A stretch of DNA of 64,000 nt from NCBI GenBank assembly GCA_026120035.1, contig JALRME010000001.1:2989909-3053908 (forward strand). Direction: 5' to 3'. This document shows, piece by piece, positions 10,541-42,556 of the stretch. The notes below the pieces were generated by a model. That model saw only the letters and a list, made by a program, of their open reading frames with translations. It had not been told where the DNA came from and ran no database searches. This stretch comes from Coleophoma eucalyptorum (taxonomy: Eukaryota > Ascomycota > Leotiomycetes > Helotiales > Dermateaceae). Every line of letters begins with the position of its first letter. Positions within the stretch are counted from its first letter, which is position 1. Both the position numbers and the translations under genes were made by a program.

Positions 10541-13500
10541 ATGGGGAGCAGACTCGAGAAAGGCTCGGAGTCCACTCGAAAGCGCATACAGGCACACACC
10601 TTTAACGACGAAGAGGGCGAAGAATATGGAGGTTCCAAATTTGGAGGTTTCACCGAATACTTCCGCCGCAAGAAAATCAAGCTTCAAAACTTGGATGCTG
10701 AACTCAGATCCTCCTCTACTCAGAACCCTAAGCTCTTTCGAGGGGTTGTCGCGCATGTAAATGGATACACCCAACCCTCCCTTAATGACCTACATCGTTT
10801 GATTGTTAGCCATGGAGGGGGTTTCTCGCAATACTTGGATGGCAAGACCTCCGTCACGCATATCATTGCTGCGAATCTTACACCAAAGAAAGCGATCGAG
10901 TTTCGGAAATACCGCATTGTGAAGCCTGCATGGGTAGTGGATAGTATCAAAGCTGAGAAGCTGCTACCATGGGATGCGTACAGAGTTGTAGATGAGGGGG
11001 TAAATCAAAGATTGCTTGGCTTTGATGATGGCAAGATCGTTACCCAAGCAAATACACAACAGCGCACCTATCGCGAGCAGACCAACACCAGCTGGTATAC
11101 AAGCCAAGTGAAATCTGTCGCCGATGATATCGATGACGAGAAAGAACCTCACTTCCCAAGCACGCAGCCACTTCTTGCACATGAGGCTGGATATGAATCA
11201 AGTCATAACGTCAAGCGAATGCAGGAATTTCAAGATACTGCAGTTCAGGCGCACAAACAGCCAGCACCAAGCTCTTCAGCCAATTTTGATGTCACTTCCT
11301 CTCTGGAAGATGCTCTGAATGCAGTTGATGACATAGAAGAAGCTGACCCAGCCCAATCGGCCAAAGATTTTATAGTACCTGCTCCTACGGCTCCATTAGA
11401 TGACCAAGATGTTCAGGATTTGGGTAGCTCAAAGAAACACTCAAACACAGGCTCGGTAGCTGCAGGAAACTTTCTCTCTGGATCCTCGGGTAAACGCACC
11501 AAGCACGACCAAGTCATAGCTTTCTACAACGAACTTCTGAAAGATGTGCCACCGCCTTCAAAGGAAGCAGAGGCAATGACAGCCGAAGAGCATAACGCAA
11601 TTCTTCTGGCCGATCCACACGTTCGAAAATCTTCAACAGCAAATCCAGGGTTTTTAAAACAATACTATGCAGAATCGAGACTCCACCATCTATCAACATG
11701 GAAGGCAGATCTAAAATCGAGGTTTCAACAGATGGCTTTAGATCGATCGCCATCTCAAAAAACCCCCATTAAGCGCAAGCCTGGAGCTAGACGCTATGTT
11801 TTACATGTCGACTTTGATAGCTTCTTTTGTGCAGTATCGTTGAGAAGTGCCCCAGAATACATCGACAAACCTGCTGTTGTGGCGCATGGAAGTGGCACAG
11901 GATCCGAGATTGCAAGCTGCAACTACCCAGCCCGAGCCTTTGGAGTCAAGAATGGAATGTGGATGAAACATGCCTTGAAATTATGTCCAGACATCAAAGT
12001 ACTGCCATACGATTTTTCTGCATATGAGGAAGCTAGTAAGGGCTTCTATGAAGCTATTATCGACGTGGGAGGCATTGTACAAAGTGTTAGCGTGGATGAA
12101 GCTCTAGTTGATGTCACTTCTCTATGCTTGCCTGCAGGTGGTTCAGACGGACTAGGGGTTAATGAAGGCAGTATCTGGCGCGAGCAAGGGAAGGCAGACG
12201 AGATTGCAACTAAACTTCGGACTCGAATCAAAGAAAAGACTGGCTGTGCAGTATCTGTCGGCATTGGCGGAAATATCCTATTAGCCAAAGTAGCATTAAG
12301 GCGAGCAAAACCAGCCGGCCAGTATCAGATCAAACCCGAAGAAATCCTCGATTTCATCGGCGAACTCAATGTAGAAAAACTACCGGGTGTTGCCTACAGT
12401 ATTGGCGGTAAGCTGGAAGAAATTGGTATCAAATTTGTCAAGGATGTCCGACAGCTATCAAAAGACCGCTTGATGACTGTACTAGGCCCAAAGACGGGGG
12501 AGAAGATTTGGGATTACTCTCGAGGAATTGATCGTACAGAAGTTGGCGAACAGGCCATCCGAAAATCTGTATCTGCAGAAGTCAACTGGGGCATACGATT
12601 TATTTCCCAACCCGAAGCTGAAGAATTTGTTCAAAACCTATGTGGTGAGCTGAATCGTCGATTGGTCGAACAACGAGTTAAGGGGAAGCAATTCACGATG
12701 AAAATTATGAGGAAAGCAGCAGATGCACCCTTGGATCCACCGAAGCATCTAGGGCATGGAAAATGCGATACTTTTAACAAAAGCATCGTCCTTGGGGTCG
12801 CTACAAACAGTGCGGAAATTCTTGGACGTGAAGCAATCTCCATTCTCAGGAGTTATGGATTCTCTCCAGGAGAGCTCAGGGGCCTTGGTGTTCAGATGAC
12901 GAAACTAGAGCCACTGAAGTCAGATGCCTTACCTGATGGAAGTCAGCGGCGCATCAACTTTAGCTCTGCTGTGCCAAAACTAGCCAAAAAGGCAACGGAG
13001 GACCCTATTGATGATCCAGAATCTCCGAAACTACAAAAAGTTCAACCTCTCTCAGTTCGGGCAGATCCAATTGATGATATCGTTACACCCCCAAAACCAA
13101 AAGCCCCGCGGGGCCGATTCCAGGACGAAGATGACCCCATTGATGACAAGATTAGTCCACTCAGACTGAAATCAACACCAGTACATCCTGCCGCAGCCAT
13201 TGCTCGTACTAACGCAGCCGATCAGAGTGCAACAAAGCCGCTCAATCTGACAGGGACCCAATTCATCATTCCTTCACAGATTGATCCTTCAGTGTTGGCA
13301 GAATTACCCCGGGATATTCGATCTAAGTTGATTGCACAGAGCAAGAGTCGACCAAGTTCTAGAGCACAATCACCAGCTGTTATTTCCCGCTCACAGAGTC
13401 CTGCCATACCAGCAGCTGCGCCTCTACCCTCTCAGTTAGATCCTGAGGTTTTTGACGCCCTTCCAGAAGATATGAAAGCCGAAGTGCTCGCTTCATACTC

Positions 13501-14287
13501 ATCACACAATGCTCACCCGTATCTTCGAAATCAGACTTTATTACCGCAGTCTCCTCGGAAACCACGATCACTGCCTCCAAAGAAAACCACACCTACTAAG
13601 CGAAGAGGTAGACCGAAAGGAGCATTTAATAGGCCGAAGCAAGACACGAACTCCGCATACATGCAATCGAACTTCAACAGAAGTGAATTTATAAGCAAAT
13701 GCAAGGACCAGACCGATTCAGAGGGTTATATCTCTGATACGCTGGATCCTGACTTCCTCTCTGCGCTACCTGAAGATGTCAGACAAGAGGTGCTCGATGA
13801 ACACCGCCGCAACCGGTTGGCCAAAAAGTCCAATCTCTTTCTTACGACAGCAAATGTCTCCAAGCGGCGGAAACCTGTGCAAGAAGGCCCAGTGTCAGGA
13901 GGAAGAAAACTTGTCCTGCCACCTCGACCACCCAAACCCACCTTCACAACTAGGAATCTAAGCACATTAAGTGAACTTCGTGACACTATCAAAGAGTGGT
14001 TCAGAGAGTTCAAGAACGAAGGGCCAAACATCGAAGATGTCGGAGCTCTAGAGAGGTATCTGAGAAGAGTCGTTGTTGATGAACGGGATCTTAGTAAGGT
14101 CGTGGGAGTCGTCAAGTGGATTGCTTGGCTGATTGACGATGCCAATACTCAGGAGGAACTTCGTAGTTCTCCCGGATGTGAGAGGAAAGGCAAAGGAATA
14201 CGCGCGTGGGAAGAGGCCCTGAAAGGAATAAAAGACAGGATTCAAGATGCTGTTAAGGAACGGGGATTGGGCCGTCTGGAGTTTTAG
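10541..14287 (+). CDS. rev1: DNA repair protein REV1 (Y-family translesion polymerase)
   Basis: Intronless, 1248 residues, full family length. Order: conserved FGGFTEYFRRKKIKLQNLD (about 34-52); BRCT domain (about 65-155, ending WVVDSIKAEKLLPWDAYRVV); catalytic core starting YVLHVDFDSFFCAV (about 417) with acidic motif SVDEALVDVTS (about 516), SVGIGGNILLAKVA and the little finger; three ubiquitin-binding-motif-like segments with a central LP (near 914, 966, 1067); and a C-terminal domain (about 1137-1205) of the kind that binds Rev7 and other Y-family polymerases. REV1 inserts dCMP opposite abasic sites and scaffolds Pol zeta in the nucleus. Three DPIDD motifs (near 821, 842, 865) lie in the linker. 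The start is the first ATG and fits the conserved N-terminus. Confidence 0.97.
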   Translation: MGSRLEKGSESTRKRIQAHTFNDEEGEEYGGSKFGGFTEYFRRKKIKLQNLDAELRSSSTQNPKLFRGVVAHVNGYTQPSLNDLHRLIVSHGGGFSQYLDGKTSVTHIIAANLTPKKAIEFRKYRIVKPAWVVDSIKAEKLLPWDAYRVVDEGVNQRLLGFDDGKIVTQANTQQRTYREQTNTSWYTSQVKSVADDIDDEKEPHFPSTQPLLAHEAGYESSHNVKRMQEFQDTAVQAHKQPAPSSSANFDVTSSLEDALNAVDDIEEADPAQSAKDFIVPAPTAPLDDQDVQDLGSSKKHSNTGSVAAGNFLSGSSGKRTKHDQVIAFYNELLKDVPPPSKEAEAMTAEEHNAILLADPHVRKSSTANPGFLKQYYAESRLHHLSTWKADLKSRFQQMALDRSPSQKTPIKRKPGARRYVLHVDFDSFFCAVSLRSAPEYIDKPAVVAHGSGTGSEIASCNYPARAFGVKNGMWMKHALKLCPDIKVLPYDFSAYEEASKGFYEAIIDVGGIVQSVSVDEALVDVTSLCLPAGGSDGLGVNEGSIWREQGKADEIATKLRTRIKEKTGCAVSVGIGGNILLAKVALRRAKPAGQYQIKPEEILDFIGELNVEKLPGVAYSIGGKLEEIGIKFVKDVRQLSKDRLMTVLGPKTGEKIWDYSRGIDRTEVGEQAIRKSVSAEVNWGIRFISQPEAEEFVQNLCGELNRRLVEQRVKGKQFTMKIMRKAADAPLDPPKHLGHGKCDTFNKSIVLGVATNSAEILGREAISILRSYGFSPGELRGLGVQMTKLEPLKSDALPDGSQRRINFSSAVPKLAKKATEDPIDDPESPKLQKVQPLSVRADPIDDIVTPPKPKAPRGRFQDEDDPIDDKISPLRLKSTPVHPAAAIARTNAADQSATKPLNLTGTQFIIPSQIDPSVLAELPRDIRSKLIAQSKSRPSSRAQSPAVISRSQSPAIPAAAPLPSQLDPEVFDALPEDMKAEVLASYSSHNAHPYLRNQTLLPQSPRKPRSLPPKKTTPTKRRGRPKGAFNRPKQDTNSAYMQSNFNRSEFISKCKDQTDSEGYISDTLDPDFLSALPEDVRQEVLDEHRRNRLAKKSNLFLTTANVSKRRKPVQEGPVSGGRKLVLPPRPPKPTFTTRNLSTLSELRDTIKEWFREFKNEGPNIEDVGALERYLRRVVVDERDLSKVVGVVKWIAWLIDDANTQEELRSSPGCERKGKGIRAWEEALKGIKDRIQDAVKERGLGRLEF

Positions 14288-33666: not shown

Positions 33667-35538
33667 ATGCAATACTCACTCCGCGAGAAAGCGGCAGACG
33701 TGAAGGAAAATATCCTATCGAAGAGCAAATCCTCAGGGTGGGTTCTAACCAAAGAAACAAGTTCCTTCGCTCCACCAGGAACATGGACAAATCTCGATAC
33801 GGACGTCACCCCAGTCGAGAGAAGGACTTGGACGTCCTGGACTATGCTCTTTTATTGGTTTAGTGACATCGTAAGTCATAAAACTGTGGGAGGTTTTCTT
33901 CACATAGCTAACCCACTAAAGCTCACAGCTCAATCATGGGAGAGTGGCTCGTCAGTAATCGAGGCTGGTTTGACCTGGCGAGAAGCGCTGGTTACACTGA
34001 TTATGGGAATTATAATCATCGTTATCCCAATGGTGTTCAATGGAGCCATTGGATCCAAGCTACATGTGTCTTTCCCAGTTGCAGCTAGATCAAGCTTCGG
34101 ATTTCACTTTGCCAAGTTTGCAGTCGTTATTAGATTGTGTACGGCTTTGTTTTGGCATAGTATCCAGACCTATAGCGGAGGTACTGCTGTCACGCAGATG
34201 ATCCGGGCCATTTGGCCTAGCTACCTGGATATTCCGAATCATTTACCGGCAAGTGCCGGTATCACTACTCAAGGTGAATATATACTTTTATATTTACAAT
34301 GGGATTGGTGAGCTAATACAGAGCAGGAATTGTGTCCCACTTTATCTTCTGGTCAATCCAATTTCCTTTCTGCTTGATTGCACCACACAAGATGAAGTGG
34401 TTCTTCAAAATGAAAGTTGTTGTCGTGCTGGCAACTTGCATTGGTACCGTAGCGGCTATGTTGACTCTTGCCAAGGGTAATAGCGGCGAGATCTGGAAGC
34501 AAGAAACGGCTATCCATGGCTCGAAACGATCTTGGATGATCATGGCTTACATGATGAGTATGGCTGGAGGCTGGTAAGTTCATAAAACCTAGGTTGAGAA
34601 AATCGCCAATCTAATTTTGGTTTCAGGTCGACAATGGCGACAAATATTCCCGACTTCACTCGCTACCTGAAGACTTCTCAGGGGACATATTGGCAAGCAC
34701 TTTTCGTCCCAGTTCTCAGCACCACCATTGCTTGTTTCGGTATGATCTGCACATCTTGTGCCAAAGTAGTCTATGGAAAGTACATATGGTCGCCCCTGGA
34801 CATCGCTGCCGAATGGACGTCCAGCGGTGGTCGAGCTGCAGCATTCTTTGTGGGGTTCTCTTGGGTAAGAACACAAATTGACTAGCATGGTGCAAGACTA
34901 ACAAATATTAGGCTGTTGCACAAATTGGAGTCAACATATCAGCAAATGTCATTTCATCTTCCAATGACATGTCCTTTCTATGCCCAAAGTACATCAACCT
35001 CCGAAGAGGCGCAGTGGTCACAACACTTATCGGAGGCTGGGCTATGGTACCTTGGAAAGTGGTCTACTCTGCCACTAGCTTCCTAAACTTCATGTCGGCT
35101 CTCACGGTATTCCTATCGCCTTGTTGTGCAATTCTGTGCTCCGATTTCTGGGTGGTGAAGAGACGGAATATTGATATACCTGCTCTATATAGGCCCTATG
35201 CCAGGTACAGATTTCATGCTGGCTTCAACTGGAGAGCGATTGTTGCTATCATCGTTAGTGTTGGCCCGAACATGCCTGGTATGGTGTATGCGGTAAACCC
35301 AAAGGTCCCTATTGGCGGTGCAATCTACATCTATGATATGAACTTTTTGTACGGCTTTTTCAGTGCATTTTTCATTTATTGTGTTCTTAACTTCCTTTGG
35401 CCTGCAAATGAGACGTTACTGCAGAGTTGTGTTTATTCTGACGAAGATGTGCTAGAGGGGCAGCACCGGGATGCAAGCATTGATGCTTGTCGCGACTCTC
35501 AGAAAGATATTGCACGGGAGAAAGTTAGCTCCATGTAA
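33667..35538 (+). CDS. NCS1-family nucleobase/allantoin-type permease
   Basis: Exons 33667-33870, 33922-34273, 34327-34573, 34627 to about 34866, then from 34913 to 35538, with all junction phases consistent. N-terminal cytosolic segment with NLDTDVTPVERRTWTSW, then TM1 and SWESGSSVIEAGLTWREAL; hallmark GAIGSKLHVSFPVAARSSFG, AGGWSTMATNIPDFTRYLKT, and ANVISSSNDMSFLCPKYINLRRGA. About 12 membrane spans expected. This is the Fur/uracil-allantoin-uridine branch of NCS1 rather than the Fcy (purine-cytosine) branch, judged from the DFTRY motif; it imports nucleobases or related N-compounds with a cation. The first intron (51 nt) is a multiple of three without a stop. Confidence 0.92.
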
Positions 35539-36176
35539 TACAGGTTTCTACGAGAGATATCATGCTTCTGGTGAGGTTTGGGCTATCAACTGTTGCATAC
35601 TAGCATATCATTTTATTTAGAGAAAGGAAGTAACGTAGGGGCTTCTAATTTATGAATGCATTGAAAATCTGATATTTTGTTAGAGGTTAATCTGTAGGGG
35701 TGAAGAAACACGAGAATTAAGAACTCGTAGGGCAGCTCCATGAGGGTTAAAGGGATGCAATCGAATGTTGATATAAAGCTACTTATGGAAATCCGACTCT
35801 CATTTGCTCTAGTGTCCTGCCTACATATCAGGCTGAACGTAACAACGTAATTGCTACCCGTCCTCTTCATCAGACCCTTCACGCCCTTCAAAAAGGGTCA
35901 AGGTATTCATACCCGAAGAGCCTGTCATCCCAAATTCACACCGACTGGGGCACGCCATCCAATGATCACCATAATGATCTAAATCAATGCGCATTGATTT
36001 AGATCATTATGGTGAACGGTTAGCGCGCCCTAGATCGGCAACAGTTGCTGAAAAATGAGACGAGCTGTGTCCGGAAAAGATATGAGAGAACCCCATAAAA
36101 CAAAAGAAATTTGGTAGCTCCAAATTGTTTAGAAAACAGTCTTTCAAGACCAACCAAAGCTAGAGAAGATGCTTCC
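35539..36176. other. Convergent intergenic region holding a 50-bp palindrome
   Basis: Lies between the 3' ends of the NCS1 permease and the zinc-finger gene. Apart from the palindrome (separate entry) nothing is recognised. Confidence 0.6.
35966..36015. repeat. Perfect 50-bp palindrome without spacer
   Basis: Left arm 35966-35990 is the exact reverse complement of right arm 35991-36015; the centre ATGC|GCAT falls between 35990 and 35991. I checked every base pair; pairing stops at the next base on each side (A opposite A). The arms are AT-rich with two GATC sites each. Transcripts from either side would form a 25-bp hairpin. Confidence 0.97.
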
Positions 36177-37000
36177 TTATAACGACATTATCTCCGAATC
36201 TGGATGGAAATCTCGTAGGTGCCTCGCCAAAAGATCCCGTCGGCTGAAGGTGTTGCGGGATGTCTGATTATGTGAATTGCAGCCTTCAACGGGGCACGTT
36301 CGCAAGTTGGCACTCTTGTTGTGTATTGAGGAAGAATGTCGGACTAGATCTTTCCGCGAATTGAATTTCCAGGCGCATCCGGTAACTGAACAAGAATATC
36401 TATGCTGGTATCCCGCAATATGTTGTCTGTTCATGAGCAGATTAGCCCTAAGTTGTAATTGACAAGGAAGCCGACTTTACTTGCCCCAGTTTTTCTGGTG
36501 TCGCGTATATCCTCGGACAATATGAACATCTAAATATCTTGCTTGGTTTTGAGCTGAAGGTAGACTGACTGCTAATTTGTTGCTGTGCTGATACAGAGTT
36601 GCAAGCGTGGCTCTGCATTGGCGGAGAAAAAGCCGTGGGGGCGGACAGCGATAAGGAAGTGGGAGTTCCATCGTCATATTCCAATGATGGATTAGAGAAT
36701 GGAGGCGGTGTTGAAGAAGATTGGGACGGTACTGGACCTTCGTCTGCGTCGTATTGGCTTGCATCGGAGACCGAATCAGTGCAACTGTGATCCGATTCGG
36801 TGCTGTCGTAAATATTCACAGCAGTCACTCCCCGAGTATCGTTTTCGCAAGCTTGATACCCGGATACGTCTATCAGAGAGGGTGGTTCTAAATCATGTTG
36901 TGGTCTGAGAGTGAGGGATCGAGGATCCACCACTGAGCAATTGATAGTCTCTATATAACAGACCCGACAAAACGTGTAGCTGCGAATAAAGATAACTATC
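36177..37000 (-). CDS. C2H2 zinc-finger protein, 5' end unresolved
   Basis: Two exons about an intron near 36430-36480. The upstream exon encodes a Ser/Pro/Asp-rich low-complexity region (STPPPFSNPSLEYDDG, SSQSTFSSKPSK) leading into a first finger (FRCSYCPRIYATPEKLG). The last exon holds HIAGYQHRYSCSVTGCAW with KFNSRKDLVRHSSSIH, then CPVEGCNSHNQ with FSRRDLLARHLRDFH: C2H2-like fingers of a fungal DNA-binding protein. No in-frame ATG begins the upstream exon (first Met is internal), so at least one 5' exon is missing, perhaps within 37010-37190. With the best donor (GTAAAG, after LGQ) the downstream finger is off by one base, so the junction is unresolved and the gene may be damaged. It may regulate the neighbouring catabolic genes (inference). 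Confidence 0.6.
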
Positions 37001-37448
37001 TGGACGACCACTAGCAGAAAGTGGTCGCCCGTGAAGGACTTAAAGCTGTACTGGGATTTGCCCAGTACCTATTGGCCGTCGATAAAGCGACCAATGCCTC
37101 GTGTGTTGTGCTTGCGAATGCTGTGTTTGGTTGACGGTCTCTTGCTCTCTGGGGAAGAAGCCTGAGTATTTATCTTGATGAGCCAGCCAGAGCCTCATTG
37201 ATTTTTCAGAGGCCACCAATAAACGTGCCGCTGCTGATGCAACAGCTGCTCGCTTACTCGGCGGCCTCCAGTAAGATTTGGGAATGCTACGCCTTCAAAG
37301 TGCGGTAGGAAGGCTAAGGATAATGTGGAAGGGTGAACAAAGTTTGAATGATGATCTTTAACTATTGGTGGCCGCCGTGGTGGACTTAAGCTACATCTTA
37401 CACTTTTATTTAACCTGTGATTCTGATTGCCAGGCATCCGAGGATCTC
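37001..37448. other. Interval between zinc-finger gene and amidase 3' end
   Basis: May hold the missing 5' exon of the zinc-finger gene. An imperfect inverted repeat (GGACGACCAC / GTGGTCGCCC, loop about 9 nt) lies at 37002-37030. No complete gene. Confidence 0.4.
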
Positions 37449-40737: not shown

Positions 40738-42556
40738 ATGGAGACTAAAGAACAAGTTGATTACCATGTGTCGGCCACGGATACAAAATTCCACAGCGGT
40801 ACAAGTTCTCCAAAGACAGAAACTGAGGAAGGAGAAGTCTTCACAGCCGGAGAGGATGGCGTTGACTTTCGGACCGTCGGCTGGATCCGAGCTGCGATGT
40901 TTTTCACCAAGGTAGGCTCTTTACTACACTGATGTTGTAAATACAACCCGAGACTGACATTTTGAGCCTCATAGATGACTTTCGCTGCTGGTAAGATCTT
41001 CTAGACCATTTACTAGTTTTCAAGAAGGATAGAAAGGAGATATCTAATACTAGATAGGTGTTCTCTCGATTCCTTCAGCTTTGTATACCCTCGGCGCAGT
41101 AGCAGGAGCTATATTTATAGCATTCTGGGGCGGCTTGAATACCTGTAAGAAAAGCTTAATAATCCTATCAGAATCTTGATGTTGCAAATTCTCCCGCTAA
41201 TATGAACTCTTTCTGGGAAAAAACAGACATGGCATATCTGCAAGGCAAATTCAAGCTGCAGCACAGATCTGTACACACCGTAGCCGATGGCGCATATATC
41301 GTGACGAAACAATTCAGTAACGGGAGCGAAAAATGGTCTATCTTTGCAAAAGAAGTCACAGAATTCATCTACATAATAACCTGGATGTAAGTACAACCCG
41401 TAATCTAGTCAGCCCCTTCTTCTACTCCCTTCAGATATCCTACTCCAAACCTGCAATTATTAATCTAAAATACAGCATCTGCGCAGGCGTATCGACTCTC
41501 GGCCTTAGCATTGCGCTCAATGCTGTCTCTCGCCATGCCACCTGCTCTGTGGCTTTCGGCTTCGTCGCCTATTTCATCATTAGCAGCGTTGCATCGATCA
41601 GGAAGATCCACAAACTAGGTTGGATTACATGGGTCGGGTTTGGAAGCATTGTGACTGCAATAATGATTGTCGTAATTGCAGTCACAATTCCTGATCGGCC
41701 GGCTGCGGCACCCAAGACGGGGGATTTTGAATTGGGCTTCGCAGCCCTGCCGCCGGTAGAGACGACGTTTGCTGCGGCGTGGGCAGCGGCGTTGGCAATT
41801 TTTAGCAGTAGTGCCAATACATCTGGATTTGTAAGTTCTTATGCCTGGTCTAGAGTTTTGAAAAGAATAAATTTGATCTGGAATGCGATTGCTGATATGG
41901 GACAGGTACCTGTCATCTCAGAAATGAGGCGACCACAGGACTATTTCAAGAGCTTATACGCGTGCATGACATGGATCACATCTTCATATCTCGCTCTCGC
42001 CTTGACGGTATATGCGTACTGTGGACAATGGGTAGCCAGTCCCGCGCTGGGAAGTGCAGGCCCCACCATCAAGATCGTTGCATATGGCGTTGCGATCCCA
42101 GGTCTGATAGCAGGAGCCATGATCTGCGTACACGTAGCAGGGAAATCGCTATTTGTGCGCATACTCCGGGGAACTCATCACCTAACCTCTAATACGAAGA
42201 CACATTGGGCAGTATGGCTCGCATGTACATATGGGACAGGCCTGTTGGGCTGGATCCTATCTGAAGCAATCCCGTTCTTCTCATCACTTGTCAGCTTGAT
42301 CGGTGCCCTAGGCTTTGCGCCGTTAGGGATTTGCTTGCCAGCCTTGATGTGGTTTAGTATGCATCCAACTTACCATCGAGGTAGTTTGAAGGAAAAGGCG
42401 ATTTGGCTGGCTCATGTGGCATTGTTCTTGTTAGGTATCTTCACATTGGTGGCCGGCACATATGCCAATGTGAAGAATATTATTGATCAGTATAAGGCTG
42501 GGTTAATTGGGGCAGCGTTTCAGTGTGCTGATAACAGCGGAACTGTTGCTGCATGA
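40738..42556 (+). CDS. AAAP-family amino acid permease (Mtr-like)
   Basis: Six exons: 40738-40911, a 16-nt microexon 40975-40990, 41058 to about 41140, 41227-41386, 41476-41830, 41906-42556; phases agree throughout. Motifs of fungal amino-acid/auxin permeases: TVGWIRAAMFFTKMTFAAGVLSIP (TM1), FWGGLNTYMAYLQGKFK, STLGLSIALNAVSRHATCSV, SSSANTSGFVPVISEMRRPQDYFKSL, and CVHVAGKSLFVRILRGTHHL. About 11 membrane spans. It imports neutral or aromatic amino acids with protons, as does Neurospora Mtr. The 75-nt last intron is a multiple of three without a stop. Upstream GATAAG sites suggest nitrogen control; the gene is divergent from the broken amidase. Confidence 0.92.

Follow-up and report, generated by a model that had tools for sequence, protein, structure and literature searches.

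Palindromes are present in all species investigated, many of those without a known function measure several dozen to several hundred base pairs, and yeast has few long repeats capable of forming cruciforms, as summarized in the review PMC7999016. In Saccharomyces cerevisiae rad27-delta lines, perfect palindromes were described as arising either when quasi-palindromes were corrected or when palindromes were extended, one example being a quasi-palindrome corrected to perfect arms of 16 bp around a 1-bp spacer (PMC5677150). Inverted-repeat homogenization has been reported from coding genes of natural S. cerevisiae strains, where the longest arm described is 16 bp, a case that lay outside the reach of the authors' simulation (PMC8604942). 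In yeast DNA under high transcription, quasi-palindrome events are reported to follow the loss of RNase H2 (PMC3820800). As set out in PMC8794818 for RNA hairpins, a single template switch can create a perfect stem, in which mismatches come later. Among the perfect inverted repeats of eukaryotes surveyed in PMC13155455, zero spacer is the predominant spacer class, and fungal mi/milRNA loci are described as often associated with protein-coding genes (PMC9757828).

The palindrome analyzed here lies in a stretch of 64,000 nt of Coleophoma eucalyptorum DNA (the window). Like the rad27-delta events described in PMC5677150, it would be a local, single-copy inverted repeat, perfected or extended, with a short or absent spacer. 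Unlike those events, whose states before and after were both sequenced and whose example has 16-bp arms and a 1-bp spacer, it has 25-nt arms and no spacer and is represented by its present state alone; that the arm is longer than the 16 bp seen in the yeast examples compared is a point against the template-switch origin favored below. The template-switch RNA hairpins of PMC8794818 offer a parallel in their one-step perfect stem and later mismatches, which a second fold-back in the genome (described below) may also display. Those loci are RNA genes placed on trees of relatives, whereas the palindrome is known from the DNA of one genome. With fungal mi/milRNA loci as described in PMC9757828 it shares the predicted capacity to form a hairpin and the proximity to protein-coding genes. 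Repetitive, AT-rich inverted repeats are the commonest ones in the eukaryotes covered by PMC13155455, while the palindrome is not a simple repeat and has a G+C content of 32%. Since the perfect inverted repeats of that eukaryote survey predominantly have no spacer, we regard the palindrome as a long, non-repetitive example of an already known kind. No account of such fold-backs in Coleophoma was found among the papers listed in the literature searched, a small part of which was specific to the genus.

A perfect spacerless palindrome between convergent genes

Sequence comparison within the window established a perfect palindrome of 2 × 25 nt at 35966–36015, the right arm (35991–36015) being the exact reverse complement of the left arm (35966–35990), with 0 nt between them (coordinates on the plus strand). 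The runner-up among spacerless palindromes in the 64-kb window has a half arm of just 9 nt. With independent bases at the base composition of the window, the expected number of spacerless palindromes of 2 × 25 nt is 6e-11 per window and 4e-8 per 45.26 Mb. The palindrome is real in the given sequence and far beyond chance. The first-pass annotation had reported the same 50-bp spacerless palindrome and had called a random origin essentially impossible, and both statements stand. Its further remark that such palindromes are rarely tolerated overstates the case at a length of 50 bp, going by the account in the review PMC7999016.

The palindrome lies in the 638-bp gap between two converging genes, in a neighborhood where permease, zinc-finger and amidase genes are clustered. 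To its left, a gene with several exons on the plus strand (33667–35538, from the first to the last exon open reading frame (ORF)) encodes an NCS1-type permease. Pfam family PF02133 was found in ORFs 33667–34311 and 34969–35538, the two exon ORFs tested, and the permease stop at 35538 lies 427 nt before the palindrome. The joined permease protein (our own splice) is 87% identical to Coleophoma cylindrospora BP6252_02697, and the query returned 1396 homologues from 7994 scored. To its right, the minus strand carries a C2H2 zinc-finger gene with at least two exons and a putative start (36177–37011), delimited from its ORFs, the fingers being recognized by eye; Pfam returned 0 families for both zinc-finger ORFs. 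Its stop at 36177 lies 161 nt from the palindrome. The convergent arrangement proposed at the outset is thereby borne out by the two stops on opposite strands and by the permease family match.

The zinc-finger query (our own splice) yielded 1 homologue among 140 candidates scored, at 67% identity over 66% of the query; this protein search requires shared 5-residue words, so that absence among named proteins is not proof of absence of the gene. The zinc-finger gene at 36177–37011 may be young or fast-evolving, or the spliced query may be incomplete. Also left of the palindrome, REV1 is encoded at 10541–14287 and is 90% identical to C. cylindrospora REV1, which places the genome close to that species. 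Among the remaining 119 of the best 120 of 2136 matches, 118 are at most 70% identical, and one partial protein reaches 73% over 61%. The C. cylindrospora proteins matched by REV1 and by the permease are both listed with a longest contig of 3,254,335; they may therefore be encoded on one contig, which would point to shared linkage on the left side and is silent across the palindrome. Elsewhere in the window, a near-perfect inverted repeat at 41648–41688 (19-nt arms, 89%, 3-nt spacer) lies inside an ORF, the later part of which matches the amino-acid transporter family PF01490 (residues 192–377). Both of its arms would encode parts of a hydrophobic stretch in that putative reading frame.

Imperfect outer arms around the core

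The perfect core is nested in a longer, imperfect palindrome of 98 bp at 35941–36038. When 150 bp around the palindrome was searched against its own genome with BLAST, an opposite-strand self-match of 82% over 98 bp was returned. By alignment and from this self-match, the palindrome is extended by a left outer arm at 35941–35965 and a right outer arm at 36016–36038 (both given on the plus strand); aligned with each other, these match at 17 positions and differ at 5, with gaps of 3 nt and 1 nt. Among random places in the window, 66 out of 10,000 reached the anchored score of the outer arms and 223 out of 20,000 the unanchored (free) score, which was also reached by 28 of 5,000 shuffles. The similarity of the outer arms is above chance at moderate significance (0.7 to 1.1% of random places). 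Matched columns amount to 25/25 in the inner arms and 17/22 in the outer arms when gaps are left out (Fisher P = 0.017), or to 25/25 and 17/24 when each of the two gaps is counted as one column (P = 0.004). This longer imperfect palindrome, with decayed outer arms around a perfect core, had been overlooked in the first-pass annotation. Beyond ~50 nt the flanks are unrelated to each other and run into two plausible genes.

These features bear on an assembly or library artefact, in which a chimeric join or a fold-back read would have been built into the contig. The zinc-finger side has no named relative by which to check the gene order across the palindrome, which leaves some room for such an error. 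A simple fold-back artefact would, however, not yield imperfect outer arms, nor does it sit well with flanks that are unrelated past ~50 nt and then enter two plausible genes. A diverged second fold-back elsewhere in the genome (L015:2787–2889) also speaks against it, and we consider an assembly artefact unlikely.

Copy number and a second fold-back in the genome

The 25-nt arm was searched for across the 45.26-Mb genome (101 contigs) with up to three mismatches and was found at its own two places alone, the reversed-pattern control giving 0. A check for further copies, suggested earlier as support for a small mobile element, is thus negative. A 21-nt inner piece of the arm occurs at one further place in the genome with three mismatches, as against 1 place for the control. 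Longer queries from either side of the palindrome returned no locus but their own in BLAST-type searches of the genome at E values up to 10; such searches skip very common words, while no such skipping is stated for the pattern searches. Between the flanks of the core (66 nt on the left and 75 nt on the right) there is no shared word of at least 6 nt, a duplication of 2 to 5 nt being indistinguishable from chance. A bacterial or viral origin was also considered and set aside, a 22-mer of the arm having 0 exact matches in the GTDB collection and a 21-mer 0 exact matches in IMG/VR. The arm holds TTGAT-N4-ATCA, a pattern that we take to resemble an FNR box.

To place the palindrome among the hairpins of its genome, one 10-kb stretch from each of 18 contigs (180 kb in all) was combined with the window to give 244 kb, which was scanned for ungapped hairpins with 40 nt on each side and a spacer of at most 8 (scoring +1/−2). 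Just two hairpins, the palindrome among them, scored at least 14, while 20 equally large first-order Markov sets contained none. At least 12 was reached by 4 hairpins (Markov mean 0.25, largest 2) and at least 10 by 7 (Markov mean 2.75, largest 6). The second fold-back, at L015:2787–2889 (G000:C9:102787–102889), spans 103 bp and consists of 47-nt arms, matched at 42/47 positions, around a 9-nt spacer, and all 5 mismatches are transitions. Its sequence is unrelated to that of the palindrome in the window, and its predicted RNA fold has an energy of −66.1 kcal/mol (z = −11.2). BLAST against the genome returned no place but its own, and its inner-arm pattern occurs at its own 2 places alone in the genome (control 0). 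A family sharing the outer part of this fold-back was considered and attributed to chance, as a 19-nt pattern occurs at 19 places with up to three mismatches, compared to 36 control places; its own two places have 0 mismatches and the other 17 have 2 or 3.

A relic of a mobile element, be it a MITE, a fold-back element or a DNA transposon whose terminal repeats came to abut when its middle was lost, would account for the fold-back shape of ~100 bp and for the presence of another fold-back of similar span in the same genome (L015:2787–2889). Yet no further copy of either fold-back was found in the genome, and the two are unrelated in sequence. The flanks are also without a direct repeat of at least 6 nt, although this comparison would overlook a duplication as short as TA. 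Terminal repeats are usually best preserved at their outer ends, and in the palindrome it is the outer ends that are worst conserved. Unrelated single-copy fold-backs fit local inverted copying rather than the usual remains of mobile families. The relic offered as one option in the first-pass annotation is disfavored by the single copy and by flanks lacking a repeat of at least 6 nt, as is a mobile-element family, and we give it little credence.

Predicted folding and regulatory readings

Transcripts of either gene that run through the palindrome would fold into a hairpin. A functional version of this is that permease transcripts, zinc-finger transcripts or both form a stem of 25 to ~45 bp in their 3' region, which would set the 3' end, block read-through or serve as a Dicer-cut milRNA-like precursor. 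The predicted fold of the palindrome region is −58.5 kcal/mol as RNA (z = −10.1) and −33.6 as DNA (z = −8.4), and the palindrome lies behind both stops, at 161 nt from that of the zinc-finger gene and 427 nt from that of the permease gene. The low-energy stem-loop by which a milRNA precursor is recognized is present, trivially so for a palindrome; because any palindrome folds well, the folding energy is not independent evidence. A typical milRNA precursor is bulged, whereas the stem here is near-perfect and loopless, and Rfam at the gathering score gave 0 matches in the window. The frequent association of fungal mi/milRNA loci with protein-coding genes, as reported in PMC9757828, does lend this reading some plausibility, and we hold a functional hairpin to be improbable, if somewhat less so than an artefact. 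The palindrome would matter as a gene-regulatory signal only if RNA data showed use of the hairpin. A known RNA family was rejected, with 0 Rfam matches in the window and in the two sampled stretches L010 and L015.

The symmetry of the palindrome, its location in the permease, zinc-finger and amidase gene cluster and a near-palindrome contained in each arm (TGATYTARATCA) could be seen as marks of a candidate site bound by a dimeric regulator such as the neighboring zinc-finger protein. Perfect half sites of 25 bp are, however, far longer than those that dimers usually read. The position at two 3' ends also fits poorly. The inner motif of the arm has 12 matches in the window (4 in the palindrome) versus 8.5 expected, with 12 reached in 21 of 100 shuffles, and a longer motif has 3 matches (2 in the palindrome) versus 1.04 expected (11 of 100 shuffles). 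A cluster-wide regulator motif was rejected because the window shows no enrichment of the inner motif. The dimeric-protein option raised earlier is accordingly weakened by arm length, by 3'-end position and by the absence of motif enrichment in the window, and appears very improbable.

Template switching as the favored origin

We read the palindrome, with a probability of roughly 60%, as a mutational scar left by short-range template switching in DNA replication or repair, an origin that was absent from the options in the first-pass annotation and is favored here. Several features expected of such a scar were found. The arms are perfect and adjacent; the perfect part lies within an imperfect inverted repeat, at moderate significance (66/10,000 and 223/20,000 random places); and the second arm is local, with no source elsewhere in the genome. 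The switch may have started from an imperfect inverted repeat of ~98 bp that was already in place, or from a short central seed such as ATGCGCAT. The nascent strand would have changed its template, either to its own copy or to the sister strand, and ~25 nt would have been copied backwards before the polymerase returned. The outcome would be a perfect core made, or re-made, between decayed outer arms, so that the core here would represent a correction or extension within an older imperfect repeat. The second fold-back (L015) would then be an older event, decayed by transitions.

What this one genome shows is the perfect core, the imperfect outer arms at moderate significance, the single copy and the second fold-back; that a switch took place, in which direction and how long ago, we infer. 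Selection could equally have maintained the perfect core. The two-step history, in which an older repeat preceded a perfected core, stands on thin ground, since the outer arms are of moderate significance and the contrast between inner and outer arms varies with the way in which gaps are counted. Once formed, the palindrome probably had no selected role. If confirmed, template switching would make this a long, spacerless natural template-switch palindrome of a filamentous fungus. In that case, and with the second fold-back added, it would become possible to measure across Coleophoma genomes how often such events occur and how their sizes are distributed.

A bolder and doubtful extension is that the genome holds a class of unrelated single-copy fold-backs with a preferred arm of ~50 nt (the two seen span 98 and 103 bp), arising from a recurrent replication switch of fixed reach, some of them expressed as young hairpin RNAs. 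The fixed reach might correspond, for instance, to one Okazaki-scale single-stranded stretch. The window was chosen for its palindrome, and the unselected find is one fold-back in 180 kb, from which the Poisson interval is about 6 to 1,400 per genome. In the same sample, a perfect spacerless palindrome of 22 bp was noted at L010:4647–4668 (G000:C4:104647–104668), with no other genome match found. By eye, the left arm of the L015 fold-back itself contains a smaller inverted repeat, ATACATC...GATGTAT.
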